A stretch of 64,000 nucleotides of DNA from a virus. Made by a program: the position numbers and the translations under genes. Positions 1 to 61,835 of this stretch are shown piece after piece; within the stretch, counting starts at the first letter, position 1, and the number at the start of each line of letters is the position of its first letter. The stretch is taken from positions 62,001 to 126,000 of IMG/VR virus record IMGVR_UViG_3300042868_003730; one strand, written 5' to 3'. The notes beneath the pieces were generated by a model, which worked only from the letters and a program-made list of their open reading frames with translations, had not been told where the DNA came from and did not search any database.

Positions 1-267
1 AAATGGGGCATCCTACACTTTCCAGTTACTAGTGAAGTTATGGGGTGGTTAAATGATCCCGACAATGAAGCAAGAAATTTGTTGACCATGGCTGCTAGAA
101 CTCTGACAGTTAGTCAGGTTTATTTTGACTATAAATCGAACAATTTTTCATATACAACGAAAACCTTTTCTGACGCTGACTTCAAATTCCATTCTCCGTC
201 AAGTACACCAAACCCAGTGGGAAACAGAATTGGCATGAAAATGATCAAATCGCCGAAGAAAGAATAA
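1..267 (+). CDS. 3' end of an unidentified protein (cut by window edge)
   Basis: The reading frame is already open at base 1 and runs to a TAA at 265-267, so the true start lies outside the window; the ATG at 40 is internal to this frame. The visible 88 residues are soluble, with a PDNEARNLL helix-like segment, a Tyr/Phe/Thr-rich stretch (VYFDYKSNNFSYTTKTF) and a basic C-terminus ending SPKKE. There is no membrane segment and no catalytic motif I recognise. A promoter follows the stop codon immediately, so this gene ends the preceding transcription unit. I do not recognise the family. Confidence 0.6.
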   Translation, partial: KWGILHFPVTSEVMGWLNDPDNEARNLLTMAARTLTVSQVYFDYKSNNFSYTTKTFSDADFKFHSPSSTPNPVGNRIGMKMIKSPKKE

Positions 268-54467: not shown

Positions 54468-55100
54468 ATGAAGTTCCTTAGAGAATCAGTCAATACCAGT
54501 GATATTAGAGTTATCACTGAAGGCATCCAGAAAGATCTATTCATTGAAGGCATCTTTGCGCAAGCAGAAACAAAGAATAGAAATGGCAGAGTATATCCAC
54601 AGAAGATCATGGAATCTGCTGTTAAGACTTATGTCAATGAATATGTTTCTTCCAATCGTGCACTTGGTGAATTATCTCACCCAGAGAATCGCCCAACAGT
54701 AAAGCCAGAATTAGCAAGCCACCTTGTTACTGAATTCCGTATGGATGGTAATAATGTTATGGGTAAGGCGAAGGTACTCAACACACCACAGGGACAGATC
54801 GTTAAGGGTTTGCTTGAGGGTGGAGTGAAACTTGGCGTATCTACTCGTGGTCTTGGATCAGTCACTGAGAGAGCTGGGTCGACGTATGTTGGTGATGACT
54901 ATACGTTAATGGCAGTGGATGTGGTATCTGATCCATCTGGTATTGATTGCTGGGTTAACGCAATCAATGAGAGTCAAGATTGGACGATCACTGATGACGG
55001 AAGAATCGTCGAAGCGATCAGAAAAGAATTGAAGAAGCAGAAACTAACTGAAGACAAGGCTTTGGCTATGTTCAGTAAGTTTTTACGCGATATCAAATAA
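54468..55100 (+). CDS. gp21: prohead protease gp21
   Basis: 210 residues (T4: 212). LFIEGIFAQAETKNRNGRVY, PQKIMESAVKTYV, ALGELSHPENRPTVKPELAS with catalytic His (~71), and GVKLGVSTRGLGSVTERAG with catalytic Ser (~124) identify the herpes-like/T4 prohead serine protease. It cleaves gp22, gp67, gp23 and internal proteins after Leu/Ile-x-Glu. It would also process capsid-targeted proteins such as the product at 60799, if those are packaged. Confidence 0.95.
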   Translation: MKFLRESVNTSDIRVITEGIQKDLFIEGIFAQAETKNRNGRVYPQKIMESAVKTYVNEYVSSNRALGELSHPENRPTVKPELASHLVTEFRMDGNNVMGKAKVLNTPQGQIVKGLLEGGVKLGVSTRGLGSVTERAGSTYVGDDYTLMAVDVVSDPSGIDCWVNAINESQDWTITDDGRIVEAIRKELKKQKLTEDKALAMFSKFLRDIK

Positions 55101-55172: not shown

Positions 55173-56018
55173 ATGTCTATTGAACAAAAAATTGCACAAC
55201 TGATGGAACAGGCTAAACAGCTCGAGTCATCGGATGAAGTTGTTTCTATTGAAGAAGAAACAACTGAAGAAGTCATTGCTGAAGAAAACAAAGAACAAGT
55301 TCAGAAGATCGACCTTGGTACTCTTTTTGAAGGTGAAGAGTTCTCGGTAGAATTTAAGTCTAAGGCAGCTGAGTTATTTGAAGCTGCAGTAGAAGCTCGT
55401 ATCAAGCAAGAAATTGCTCAGATCGAAGAAGAAGTTTCACAGCGTTTAGTTAATGAGAGCGCTGAGTTAAAAGAGGGTCTTGTTGATAAAGTTGATGGAT
55501 ATCTCGACTACGTAGTCGAACAGTGGATGCAAAAGAATGAGCTCGCCCTTGATCGTGGTATTAAAGTCGAAATCTTTGAAAGTTTCGTAAGCGGAATGAA
55601 GGATCTTTTTGAAACTCATTATATCGAAGTTCCAGAAGAAAAGTTTGACCTAATGGAAAGTGTCGACGCAAAAGCAAAAACTCTTGAAGAACAAGTAGAT
55701 TTTCTTACTGCACAAAACGTTGAATTACAGCAGAAGTTTAAGTTAGTCGCAAAAGAAAGACAAATCGAAGAAGCTGCTAAAGAGCTGACCGATTTGGAAG
55801 CAGAGCGATTCAAACAACTCGCTGAAGAATTGGCGTATGATGATGAAGAATCATTCGGAAAGAAATTAGAACTCGTAAAAGAGAACTATATTTCGAAGTC
55901 AAAACAAGTGAAGGCAGTTGTTGAGTCAGTGGTAACTGATTCGCCTGTTGAACTTAATGAAGAAAAGCAAATCGATGCATCGATGGCGCGTTATATGCAT
56001 GCCTTCAAAGCACGATAA
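55173..56018 (+). CDS. gp22: prohead scaffold gp22
   Basis: 281 residues (T4: 269), extremely acidic and helical: SIEQKIAQLMEQAKQLESSD, DLGTLFEGEEFSVEFKSKAA, ELFEAAVEARIKQEIAQIEE, and the ending MARYMHAFKAR, which is typical of gp22. It forms the core around which gp23 assembles and is digested by gp21. Directly followed by gp23 with a strong AAAAAGGAAAT ribosome site. Confidence 0.9.
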   Translation: MSIEQKIAQLMEQAKQLESSDEVVSIEEETTEEVIAEENKEQVQKIDLGTLFEGEEFSVEFKSKAAELFEAAVEARIKQEIAQIEEEVSQRLVNESAELKEGLVDKVDGYLDYVVEQWMQKNELALDRGIKVEIFESFVSGMKDLFETHYIEVPEEKFDLMESVDAKAKTLEEQVDFLTAQNVELQQKFKLVAKERQIEEAAKELTDLEAERFKQLAEELAYDDEESFGKKLELVKENYISKSKQVKAVVESVVTDSPVELNEEKQIDASMARYMHAFKAR

Positions 56019-56045: not shown

Positions 56046-57383
56046 ATGGAACAATCTCGTCCTGATCTAGTTAAGAAGTGGGCTCCTATTCTTGAGCACG
56101 CTGATCTTCCACAAATCAAAGATAACTACCGCAAGGAAGTTACTGCTGTTCTTCTTGAGAACCAAGAACGTGCTCAGCGCGAAGAGCGTCGTGCCCTGTT
56201 CGAAGACATTCCAAACGGATCGGCTGTTAGCGGTACATTCATGCCTGACAGTGGTGGTGTTGCTAAGTTTGACCCAGTTCTGATTAGCCTGGTTCGCCGT
56301 GCTATGCCAGCAATGGTCGCTTATGACATGTGCGGCGTTCAGCCAATGACCCAGCCTACAGGTCTGATCTTCGCAATGAAGTCAACCTATATGACAAGTG
56401 CTGGTGTTCGTGGTTCAGAAGCTCTGTTCAACGAAGCTGACACTGGTTACTCGGGTGTTGCTGCTGGTGGTACTGCTGGTACTTCCAACACTGGTGCTGC
56501 TCAGTCTGCACTGAATGGTTCTACAACTCCGATCACATCGGGTACTGCTTTCCCAACGGCAACTGCTGAAAACCAAACTGGTACTGGTACTGGTACTACC
56601 CAGCAAAATAACGGCGCTGGTTTCAACCAGATGGGATTCACAATCGAAAAGACTTCAGTTACTGCGCAATCGCGTGCTCTGAAGGCTGAGTACTCTGTTG
56701 AACTCGCACAGGACTTGAAGTCGGTTCACGGTCTTGACGCTGAAGCCGAGCTGAGCAACATCCTTTCGCAAGAAATCCTGGCTGAAATTAACCGCGAAGT
56801 TATTCGTACGGTTTACAACTCAGCTAAAGTTGGTGCTCAAGTCGGTACTGCTACTGCTGGTATTTTCGACCTTGACGTTGACTCGAATGGTCGTTGGTCA
56901 GTTGAGAAGTTCAAGGGTCTGATGTTCCAAATCGAACGCGAAGCAAATGCAATTTACCAAACGACACGTCGTGGTCGCGGTAACTTCATCGTTTGCTCAG
57001 CTGACGTTGCTTCGGCTCTGGCAATGGCTGGTGTTCTTGACTACGCTCCTGCGCTGTCAACGAACCTGAACGTTGACGAAGCAAGCAACACGTTTGCTGG
57101 TGTTCTGAATGGTAAGTACAAAGTGTATGTTGATCCATATGCTGCTAACCAATCAGCTGACCAATTCCTGTTGGTTGGTTACAAGGGTTCATCGGCATTC
57201 GACGCTGGTATCTTCTACTGCCCATACGTTCCGCTGCAACTGTACCGCGCTACAGACCCAGCAACGTTCCAGCCGAAGATCGCTTTCCGTACTCGCTACG
57301 GTATCGTTGCTAATCCGTTCACGGCTCTGACCGCTGGCGACAACATCTACTTCCGCAAGGTTCGCGTTCAGAACCTGATGTAA
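56046..57383 (+). CDS. gp23: major capsid protein gp23
   Basis: 445 residues (T4: 521). LVKKWAPILEHADLPQIKDN, YRKEVTAVLLENQERAQREE, FDPVLISLVRRAMPAMVAYD, CGVQPMTQPTGLIFAMKSTY and ALKAEYSVELAQDLKSVHGL are unmistakable. gp21 cleavage could follow LLE38 or LFE53 (consensus Leu/Ile-x-Glu). A Gly/Thr-rich loop (~140-185) lies in a region variable between phages. A strong TTCG terminator follows. Base use is the most codon-optimised here, as expected for the most abundant protein. Confidence 0.97.
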   Translation: MEQSRPDLVKKWAPILEHADLPQIKDNYRKEVTAVLLENQERAQREERRALFEDIPNGSAVSGTFMPDSGGVAKFDPVLISLVRRAMPAMVAYDMCGVQPMTQPTGLIFAMKSTYMTSAGVRGSEALFNEADTGYSGVAAGGTAGTSNTGAAQSALNGSTTPITSGTAFPTATAENQTGTGTGTTQQNNGAGFNQMGFTIEKTSVTAQSRALKAEYSVELAQDLKSVHGLDAEAELSNILSQEILAEINREVIRTVYNSAKVGAQVGTATAGIFDLDVDSNGRWSVEKFKGLMFQIEREANAIYQTTRRGRGNFIVCSADVASALAMAGVLDYAPALSTNLNVDEASNTFAGVLNGKYKVYVDPYAANQSADQFLLVGYKGSSAFDAGIFYCPYVPLQLYRATDPATFQPKIAFRTRYGIVANPFTALTAGDNIYFRKVRVQNLM

Positions 57384-59004: not shown

Positions 59005-60786
59005 ATGAAAGTAGTGCATAAAGATTTACAGGCTCTTGGTGTTGATCAGGAGTCTGTAAGAAAATTCTTGAAGTACAAAGAAGCAGATGCTAAGGTAGGG
59101 GATGACCCGTATGCTTCATCTGCTAGTGAAAAGGCAAATAAGACCAAGGCGTATCGCGAACTGCATAAAGACCTCACCGCTAAAACCAAGAATCCTAATG
59201 TTGCGATTCAAACTCTAAGTAACATTCATGACTATAAAGGAAAAGAAGCGATGTATGAAAGTATGATGTCATTCAAATCTTTCCTCGAGATCAATGAATT
59301 GTCTAACGTCACCCTGGCTTCTTATAAAAAGAAAGCAGGAGAACAGGCAACAGCTGCTGATAAGGCAGGTGACTTCAAGAAAGGTAATAAGCGATTCTCT
59401 GGTATTACCAAAGCAACGAAGAAACAATTTGCTAATCCAGTAAAAGAAGATTTTAATATCTGTGAAACAGCAGAATCTGGACTCGCTGCCAAAGCAGAAA
59501 AATCTGGTATCTCAATCGGTACGCTACGCAAAGTTTATAATCGCGGTATGGCAGCGTGGAACTCTGGCCATCGCCCAGGAACCACTCCACAACAATGGGG
59601 TATGGCTCGCGTAAACTCTTACATCACCAAAGGCAAAGGTACATATCACGGAGCAGATAAAGACTTGCGTGAAGAAACCGTACAGGAGTCTGGTGGTACT
59701 GCTGTGTGGAAAAGTGGATGTTGTCATGTTGAAAAATATGGAGATGATGTATTTGCTCTATATGTTAATGATAAAAAACATAAATTTTACACTTCATTAA
59801 AAGATGCTAAAGCTGCGTCAGTTGAGTTTAATGGGAAAAATCTAGAAGAAAAAGAAGTTCCAAAAGATCCGGAGTCTGGACTGCCAAAGAAATATGTTGC
59901 TGGTCTTTCATCCTCTACTGCTAAAGCCAGGGCTGCGCACTTCAATAAAATGGATAAGAAAAGCGACAGCGACCCAACTGCATATGAACCAGCACCTGGA
60001 GACGCAACTGCTAAAACCAAAACAAGTAAGCATACATTAAAGTATCGCGAAATGTATGGAGAAAGTATTGATGAGGAAATACTGGAAGCATGCTGGGTTG
60101 GTTATAAACAAGTTGGTGTGAAGAAAAAGGGAAATAGAATGGTTCCCAACTGCGTGGCAGAAGATGTTGATTATATGTTCCATCCTCTTATCGAAGCAGT
60201 AAATGCAATTGATAGTGGTGAGTATGACTACGAGGGCCAGATGGCCAGATTACAGTTACAAACTATCTGCCGCAACTCAAAAGATTTAGTTGACATGCTT
60301 TCTGACGATGAGAATATGCCAGAGTGGGTTCAATCTAAAATAACTTTAGCTCAAGATTATATTAGTTCAGTTAGAGATTACTTACAATCTAAAGAAGAAT
60401 TGGGTGAAAATCTAGAAGAACAATTCGATATAATCGAAGAAGTTGTTGAAGAGCTATCAGCTGAATATGGTATTGACTCTGAAGTAATTTGGGAAAACTT
60501 TGACGAGTTTACAGACGAAGAATTACTAGAATACGCAGTTGATGCCAAAGGGCACAAATCGTCCACTGGTGGATTGACACAAAAAGGTCGAGATGCTTAC
60601 AACGCCAAAGGCGGAAATTTGCAAGCACCAGTGACTACTCCGCCATCCAAACTGAAGCCAGGAAGTAAGGCAGCAAATCGTCGTAAGTCTTTCTGCGCAC
60701 GTATGGGTGGTATGGAAGGTGCCATGAAAAAACCAAATGGTGAACCCACTCGCAAAGCACTAGCTCTGCGTAAATGGAATTGCTAA
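59005..60786 (+). CDS. mosaic protein with DUF5824-like and DUF6321-like domains
   Basis: 593 residues; ATG 59005 follows the previous stop by one base. Domains: ~1-80, charged; ~88-115, SFKSFLEINELSNVTLASYK, a repeat-type start also used as a capsid-targeting-like segment; ~153-228, a DUF5824-like block (AEKSGISIGTLRKVYNRGMA, AWNSGHRPGTTPQQWGMARV); ~362-386, ACWVGYKQVGVKKKGNRMVP; ~400-515, acidic helical; ~516-593, DUF6321-like (RRKSFCARMGGMEGAMKKPN, ALALRKWNC). An in-frame ATG at 59251 has an AAAGG site 10 bases upstream, a possible second start. Such mosaics are found as injected or head-associated proteins; role unknown. Confidence 0.7.
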   Translation: MKVVHKDLQALGVDQESVRKFLKYKEADAKVGDDPYASSASEKANKTKAYRELHKDLTAKTKNPNVAIQTLSNIHDYKGKEAMYESMMSFKSFLEINELSNVTLASYKKKAGEQATAADKAGDFKKGNKRFSGITKATKKQFANPVKEDFNICETAESGLAAKAEKSGISIGTLRKVYNRGMAAWNSGHRPGTTPQQWGMARVNSYITKGKGTYHGADKDLREETVQESGGTAVWKSGCCHVEKYGDDVFALYVNDKKHKFYTSLKDAKAASVEFNGKNLEEKEVPKDPESGLPKKYVAGLSSSTAKARAAHFNKMDKKSDSDPTAYEPAPGDATAKTKTSKHTLKYREMYGESIDEEILEACWVGYKQVGVKKKGNRMVPNCVAEDVDYMFHPLIEAVNAIDSGEYDYEGQMARLQLQTICRNSKDLVDMLSDDENMPEWVQSKITLAQDYISSVRDYLQSKEELGENLEEQFDIIEEVVEELSAEYGIDSEVIWENFDEFTDEELLEYAVDAKGHKSSTGGLTQKGRDAYNAKGGNLQAPVTTPPSKLKPGSKAANRRKSFCARMGGMEGAMKKPNGEPTRKALALRKWNC

Positions 60787-60798
60787 GGTAGAAGGATA

Positions 60799-61305
60799 AT
60801 GAAATCATTTAAGAGTTATCTTACTGAACAATACGCAGGAAACTACGTCTGTCTGGAAACAGAAGATATGTCGTTTTTCTTTGTAGACTGTGGAATTCCT
60901 GAGCCAACATCTGGGGTAGTTCCTCCAGATTTTCACTGTACAGTTATGTACTCTGAAATATCAGTTATTGAACCAGAAAGAGTTGCTAGCCTATTGCGTA
61001 CTTCTGGATTCAATAAACCATACATCGGTAAGATAATTGGGTTTGATCTTTTTGATTCACCTGAAGATAATACCAAGTGTTCTCTTGTCGCTAAAATAGA
61101 ATGCCCTGAATTGATGCAAGCGCATGACTATCTAAAGGGTATTGGTCTACAACATTCTTATTCAGAATATTCACCGCATATTACTCTACGATATGGAATG
61201 GATATTATTGAGGCAGCTAAATACAAAGAATTGCTAAGTGGTTGTACTGGTTCGGTTACGATGGCAAAGTTTAGAAGTGAGCCAATAAATAAACATTACG
61301 TATGA
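60799..61305 (+). CDS. 2H phosphoesterase, Acb1-like (anti-CBASS candidate)
   Basis: 168 residues with AGAAGGAT ribosome site. Two HxT motifs, His46-x-Thr48 in DFHCTVMYS and His127-x-Thr129 in SPHITLRYG, define the 2H phosphoesterase fold. T4 Acb1 (57B) has its pairs at 44/46 and 113/115, so size and spacing fit; Acb1 destroys the cyclic nucleotides that trigger CBASS immunity. The N-terminus MKSFKSYLTEQ looks like the capsid-targeting segments of T4 internal proteins, suggesting packaging and injection. Alternatives: an RNA 2'-5' ligase-type or other phage 2H enzyme. Overlaps gp3 by ATGA. Confidence 0.65.
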   Translation: MKSFKSYLTEQYAGNYVCLETEDMSFFFVDCGIPEPTSGVVPPDFHCTVMYSEISVIEPERVASLLRTSGFNKPYIGKIIGFDLFDSPEDNTKCSLVAKIECPELMQAHDYLKGIGLQHSYSEYSPHITLRYGMDIIEAAKYKELLSGCTGSVTMAKFRSEPINKHYV

Positions 61306-61835
61306 CTATTCTAACTTGCCCATCGCCGAGTAACATTAACCCATTAAATCCAAATGGATTTTTGTTCTCGGTCAGTAAACTCCCGGAACTAACATTCTTC
61401 GTTCAGGACGTAGAGTTGCCTTCTCTTAGTATCGGGACTGTTATCCAGTCATCAAGTGTTCAAGATATTAAGATTCCAGGAGAGACAGCTGATTTTGGTA
61501 GTCTTAGTGTTGAGTTTCTTGTAGATGAACAGTTCGCCAACTATAAAGCAATTTATGCCTGGATGGTTGGATTGACATACCCAGAGACCCATGATATGTA
61601 TAAGGCATTCTTAGCCTCTGCAAAGAATGCGAACTCATACAGTGAACTGGCGAAGGGTTACTCTGATGCATCATTGACTATTCTCGATAGCAGCAATAAT
61701 CCAGTTCAGAGAATTACGTTTATTGATGCGTTTCCAACATCGCTAAGTACATTACCATTTACCTCTCAGAGTAGTGATGTTCAATTCCTGAGAGCAACTG
61801 CTACGTTTGACTATACATATTATAAATTATCTTAA
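61302..61835 (+). CDS. gp3: tail completion protein gp3
   Basis: 177 residues (T4: 176). NPLNPNGFLFSVSKLPELTF, FVQDVELPSLSIGTVIQSSS, VDEQFANYKAIYAWMVGLTY and PETHDMYKAFLA follow the tail-terminator pattern of T4-like phages, a tube-fold protein. It caps the tail tube when the gp29 length is reached, then gp15 binds. Encoded between the Acb1-like gene and uvsY, far from the other tail genes, as in other T4-like phages. Confidence 0.8.
   Translation: MTILTCPSPSNINPLNPNGFLFSVSKLPELTFFVQDVELPSLSIGTVIQSSSVQDIKIPGETADFGSLSVEFLVDEQFANYKAIYAWMVGLTYPETHDMYKAFLASAKNANSYSELAKGYSDASLTILDSSNNPVQRITFIDAFPTSLSTLPFTSQSSDVQFLRATATFDYTYYKLS

Follow-up and report, generated by a model that had tools for sequence, protein, structure and literature searches.

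An Acb1-family phosphodiesterase with a capsid-targeting-like N-terminus in a T4-like virus, and the same tag on four unrelated genes

Two described systems bear on the locus reported here. In Acb1, the catalytic residues are H44, T46, H113 and T115, the bases are stacked by Y12, W74, F107 and W147, and adenine is read by E141 (PMC9117128). The activity of T4 Acb1 appears only approximately 15 min after infection starts, in line with CBASS itself setting in late (PMC9117128); the enzyme is therefore seemingly not pre-delivered in T4, and pre-delivery may be unneeded. Signal-degrading counter-defence is commonly viewed as needing phage expression first. The second system is the targeting sequence of the T4 internal proteins. 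The first ten residues of IPIII suffice for packaging, with residues 4 and 7 directing targeting and residues 8 and 10 directing processing by gp21 (PMC9026906), and T4 Ip1-3, which carry the same leader, are injected anti-restriction proteins (PMC12373910). Acb1 and the T4 targeting sequence are each known separately; their combination in one protein, and the sharing of a single tag by five unrelated proteins in the same phage, appear to be new.

The window, a stretch of 64,000 nucleotides, was analysed from a marine virus record of 147,921 bases, which carries T4-like head genes for the portal, an S77 prohead protease, a T4-type scaffold and gp23. The open reading frame of interest (acb1; Table 1) is a real gene. 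It lies directly 3' of the preceding gene, and its ATG start is preceded immediately by AGAAGG. The gene is conserved in a relative, L003, which is 89% identical and has the same neighbouring genes; synonymous codons hold 41 of the base differences and non-synonymous ones 26. A nucleotide search of the region against phage records gave no match, a scan with the Aeromonas Acb1 as the query did not find relatives, and none of the Acb1s examined matched NCBIfam. The T4-type late promoter TATAAATA was not enriched, and none was identified close to acb1.

The expected processing machinery is encoded a short distance upstream of the gene (Table 1), and the gp23 of this phage has its own [LI]-x-E site (LFE/D; here and below, a slash marks the cut position). 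Downstream of gp23, the order is an AAA-type ATPase gene, the modular protein, acb1, gp3, UvsY and a UvsW-like gene, the last recognised by inspection only. The proposed gp3 neighbour was borne out, as the product of the next gene matches the annotated gp3 of S-SM1 (5e-32). A tag-like segment had also been reported in the preceding gene. The segment exists (MMSFKSFLEINE, 59263), but it is internal, at approximately residue 88 of the product that starts at 59005. The counterpart in L003 (position 3487) reads MMSFKSFIEEAK. There, MMSFKSFIEE/AK forms a full tag that follows two in-frame methionines. This is possibly an internal start, though a clear ribosome site was not seen.

Table 1. Features of the acb1 locus and the tagged genes of the same genome (a slash marks the predicted cut)
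Feature	Position	Strand	Details
acb1 gene, 168 aa	60799..61305	+	PF23474 7.3e-14; phmmer 7t26/7t27 8e-7; Foldseek top matches all Acb1
Capsid-targeting-like tag MKSFKSYLTE, predicted cut after Glu10	60799..60828	+	IPIII positions 4, 7, 8, 10 matched
HxT motif 1: H46, C47, T48	60934..60942	+	aligned to T4 H44/T46
HxT motif 2: H127, I128, T129	61177..61185	+	aligned to T4 H113/T115
C-terminal lid E161-V168	61279..61302	+	E161, Y167 aligned with adenine-contacting E141, lid W147
gp21 prohead protease (Peptidase_S77), expected processing enzyme	54468..55100	+	PF03420 1.2e-42
gp22-type scaffold (T4_CASP), expected docking partner	55173..56018	+	PF25623 7.7e-60
gp23 major capsid protein	56046..57383	+	PF07068 3.8e-139
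Modular protein (DUF5824, DUF6321 modules), 13 [LI]-x-E sites	59005..60786	+	start as in L003
gp3 tail completion protein	61302..61835	+	phrog_45 3e-36; 38% to S-SM1 gp3
Tagged gene: Acb1	60799..61305	+	MKSFKSYLTE
Tagged gene: DUF6267			MLDFRTYITE/A; 6e-93
Tagged gene: cytidylyltransferase			MKNYKSLIQE/V; phrog_3041 1e-64
Tagged gene: T7-0.7-like protein kinase	L007:6233-6889 (window -17767 to -17111)		MIRLKEFISE/A; phrog_15752 4.5e-12
Tagged gene, no family match	L008:4176-5267 (window -824 to 267; 3' end at 1..267)	+	MLSLKQYISE/T

The acb1 product scored 52.1 bits against the Pfam family of Acb1, for which the curated cut-off is 27, and the PDB entries matched by phmmer are those of FBB1 Acb1. 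An AF2 model, built on a shallow alignment of 13 sequences, was of moderate confidence (mean pLDDT 74.5). In a Foldseek search with this model, the top five matches were Acb1 structures, including 9q2g, 9q2y, 7t27 and 7t26; the poxvirus cGAMP PDE, Usb1 and LigT ranked below them, with CPDase also among the next 2H folds. Comparison of a predicted structure with Acb1 had been set beforehand as a check on the proposal of an Acb1-like 2H phosphoesterase. As the model was nearer to Acb1 than to LigT, Usb1 or RNA-ligase-type 2H enzymes, the proposal passed its structural refutation test. Membership of the family is clear from Pfam, the PDB sequences and the fold, and the identification of the product as Acb1 is close to certain. 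A LigT- or Usb1-like role was rejected, as both rank under Acb1 in the fold search. The PHROG family of the protein, phrog_755, is labelled 'RNA ligase', and RefSeq puts the same label on T4 gene 57B. This function was rejected, as the fold is of the Acb1-type 2H and there is no nucleotidyltransferase ligase fold.

Both of the proposed HxT motifs are present (H46/T48 and H127/T129), with 81 residues between the two histidines compared with 69 in T4 (H44, H113). Residues Y16, Y121, E161 and Y167 align at Y12, F107, E141 and W147, and the W74 position is probably occupied by a Phe near 81-84, where the alignment is uncertain. The ligand contacts of Acb1 are kept or conservatively replaced. On the basis of this alignment, the protein is expected to act on adenine-containing cyclic oligonucleotides, although this is an inference and the activity has not been shown. 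A packaged 2H phosphodiesterase could instead have another true target, such as RNA 2',3'-cyclic ends, the cyclic oligoadenylates of type III CRISPR or other signals, given that enzymes of the 2H fold act on a wide range of substrates (the fold search places Usb1, LigT and CPDase after Acb1) and that the host of the phage and its defences are unknown. With Acb1 structures at the top of that search, the adenine-reading E161 and the lid aromatic kept, and nine out of nine further Acb1 homologues having cleaved the CBASS signals tried (PMC9117128), such a target was considered improbable.

The N-terminus, MKSFKSYLTEQ, had been likened to the signals of T4 internal proteins. The likeness holds at all four genetically mapped positions of IPIII, with hydrophobic residues at 4 and 7, I/L at 8 and E at 10, and L8-T9-E10 forms an [LI]-x-E processing-type site. 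The accompanying description of such proteins as packaged with the DNA was incorrect; in T4, they are taken into the prohead core first, and the DNA is packaged afterwards. Residues 1-13 of the AF2 model are disordered and the first strand spans 14-21, so a cut after Glu10 should spare the enzyme, with Y16 in place. The Acb1 of L003 keeps the tag with the changes S6T and Q11A, giving Glu/Ala at the cut.

Across 19 Acb1 N-termini, the full tag was present in the window protein and L003 and in none of the 17 others. The Acb1s of T4, Cronus, FBB1, Ci1, S13 and Ahp1 are hydrophobic at positions 4 and 7 only, and those of phage phiRU and L004 have nearly no leader. Judged from these N-termini, the complete tag seems to have been added in the window lineage, perhaps onto a leader of the T4 type. 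In view of the T4 and Cronus starts (MMEFKDFSTG and MNNFKEFSTG), the resemblance may be partly inherited. The protein could be an ordinary Acb1 that is produced late in the infected cell, with a short family lead-in that resembles the targeting sequence by chance and nothing packaged; T4-family Acb1s are often hydrophobic at 4 and 7 without the processing residues, and T4 Acb1 acts late. However, all four positions are met only in the window protein and L003, its lead-in exceeds that of T4 by four residues, leaving room for the cut, and the register is common to four unrelated genes of the same genome. An ordinary Acb1 was therefore considered unlikely, though not to be dismissed, and a functional capsid-targeting tag on the window Acb1 was considered quite probable.

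The strict tag, M..[FYL]..[FYL][IL].E, was tested at all of the ORF starts in the genome, with internal windows of the same proteins as the background. It was found at five starts against 0.26 expected (p 8e-6). A looser form (large hydrophobic residues at 4 and 7, I/L/V at 8) recovered the same five against 0.97 expected (p 0.003), and the strict form with K/R/Q at position 5 gave five starts against 0.06 expected (p 5e-9). As the class at position 5 was picked after seeing the matches, 8e-6 is the fairer value, with the caveat that even the strict residue classes were written with the matches in view. Chance is an unlikely source of the shared tag. The five tagged proteins are unrelated, so common descent of the cargo cannot explain the shared leader. 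In the T7-0.7-like kinase, the tag is kept in L230/L231. The relatives of the -824 gene (L225-L229, 67-70% identical) are untagged and begin MTIKKKLLTPSKF, where the tagged leader ends. The tag is modular, which supports a loading signal.

Since four unrelated enzymes have the tag in common with Acb1, a small set of enzymes is probably injected along with the DNA of this phage, although injection itself is inferred. In a broader reading, at least five unrelated proteins would be injected as a coordinated payload under one cleavable tag, comprising Acb1 against CBASS, the T7-0.7-like kinase, the cytidylyltransferase, DUF6267 and the protein without a family match, which may be nuclease-like. 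On this view, the tag is a general, transferable virion-loading code, and counter-defence would precede any phage gene expression. We regard this as an even chance. From its sequence alone, the product of the -824 gene has a putative PD-(D/E)XK nuclease site (VDYYLV..EKISAKAG). Separately, L007:6903-9761 (window -17097 to -14239) encodes a protein of 952 aa that starts MKTFKELFEK and has repeated VELDE/A-type linkers; it resembles a polyprotein that the prohead protease would process.

In IMG/VR, a stringent version of the tag at the DNA level matched 84 times, and every match opened a reading frame; this generality also supports a loading signal. The matches include recognisable T4 internal proteins, DUF6267, a GNAT-like protein and many other cargos. 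The T4-like phage L062 has four tagged genes in about 2.4 kb, a cassette of internal protein genes. A tagged small protein in L063 (3561-3965, minus strand) contains YHGTS...KIKKSGF and resembles an ADP-ribosyltransferase/KptA-type fold (weak PF01885); it is perhaps a small Alt-like enzyme. In cyanophage S-SM1, the sole annotated gene with the strict tag encodes a cytidylyltransferase (MKKFSAFLNE/A). This protein was detected in purified virions, among 41 virion proteins detected out of some 230 genes (PMC3037559). Given that proportion and the single case, the match is supportive but not conclusive. HTVC008M, another T4-like phage of marine origin, encodes a homologous cytidylyltransferase but has no strict tag, and the tag set is therefore not universal. 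The 57B homologue of Morganella phage MP1, gp137, has been reported in virions on two peptides, and its authors warn that proteins with fewer than four may be impurities. Its N-terminus lacks the full tag, and for both reasons it was given little weight.

The results are best explained by the following sequence of events. Late in infection, the hydrophobic residues 4 and 7 would dock Acb1 on the scaffold core, and the gp21 protease would cut after Leu-Thr-Glu10 during head maturation. The freed enzyme, intact and starting at Gln11, five residues ahead of the base-stacking Tyr16, would enter the next cell together with the ejected DNA. There, it would hydrolyse 3'3'-linked cyclic di- and trinucleotides, blunting CBASS from the first minutes. 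Packaging, cleavage, injection, the substrate and the benefit against CBASS are inferred, and we assign this reading (packaging in the prohead, trimming after Glu10, injection and early removal of CBASS signals) a probability of roughly 0.62. Acb1 identity, a functional tag and early action on CBASS signals, taken jointly, were held to be about as likely, with virion presence and activity again inferred. The sequence observations of the first-pass annotation (the HxT pairs, the MKSFKSYLTEQ start and the adjacent gp3) were confirmed, and its reading of an Acb1 with a capsid-targeting-like N-terminus is supported to the extent that sequence and structure allow.

Two properties of the protein count against this reading. 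It is acidic (pI 5.2), unlike the basic internal proteins of T4, and its [LI]-x-E sites beyond the tag border, IPE35/P and IIE138/A, could be cut. Another possibility is that Acb1, brought into the prohead core by its tag, is no more than a scaffold or passenger component there and is degraded or left behind rather than ejected in active form, as gp21 destroys most T4 core proteins (PMC9026906) and the upstream modular protein is rich in such sites. Acb1 has just three, of which one is at the tag border and one precedes a proline, and an assembly role would not need a conserved active site; a mere scaffold or passenger role was considered very doubtful. If pre-loading is true, it would shift when CBASS is disarmed; the shared tag also offers a simple rule for predicting proteins injected by marine T4-like phages.

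Acb1 is also tied to a virion protein in temperate phages. With a Vibrio Acb1 as the query, a scan recovered 73 loci, most of them in temperate phages (including L155, L151 and L215), and in 72 of them the domain lies inside an ORF of >400 aa. Three were checked against Pfam, and each is a portal protein (PF06381) with a C-terminal Acb1 domain. The portal fusion links Acb1 to the virion by another, independent route; it joins Acb1 to the portal (PF06381 + PF23474) with no cleavable tag, unlike the protein described here. A literature search found no paper tying a phage Acb1 to virions or treating the portal-Acb1 fusion.

The window protein resembles Acb1 (T4 gp57B, FBB1 Acb1; PF23474) in its fold, its HxT/HxT tetrad and its base-stacking and adenine-reading residues, and, like T4 Acb1, is encoded near gp3 by a T4-like phage. 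It differs in adding a complete tag with a processing site; the processing residues are absent from T4 Acb1, which is a late-acting enzyme. The cyanophage cytidylyltransferase T4-GC190 is likewise tagged in S-SM1 and in S-SM2 (MKSFFQFLSE/A), and its homologue is tagged in the window genome, but it is a different enzyme, and the accessible part of the source reports no cleavage for it. T4 Alt is also an enzyme that is processed by gp21 (a 7-residue propeptide) and injected, but it is an ADP-ribosyltransferase acting on the host RNA polymerase and has no sequence relation to Acb1. With T4 IPI, IPII and IPIII, whose known members are injected counter-defence proteins, the window protein has in common the 10-residue register, hydrophobic positions 4 and 7, an [LI]-x-E site at 8-10 and the gp21/gp22 machinery. 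There is no homology between the mature domains, that of the window protein being a 2H phosphodiesterase, and the leader alone is common to them: the cargo is an acidic signal-degrading enzyme rather than a small basic restriction inhibitor.
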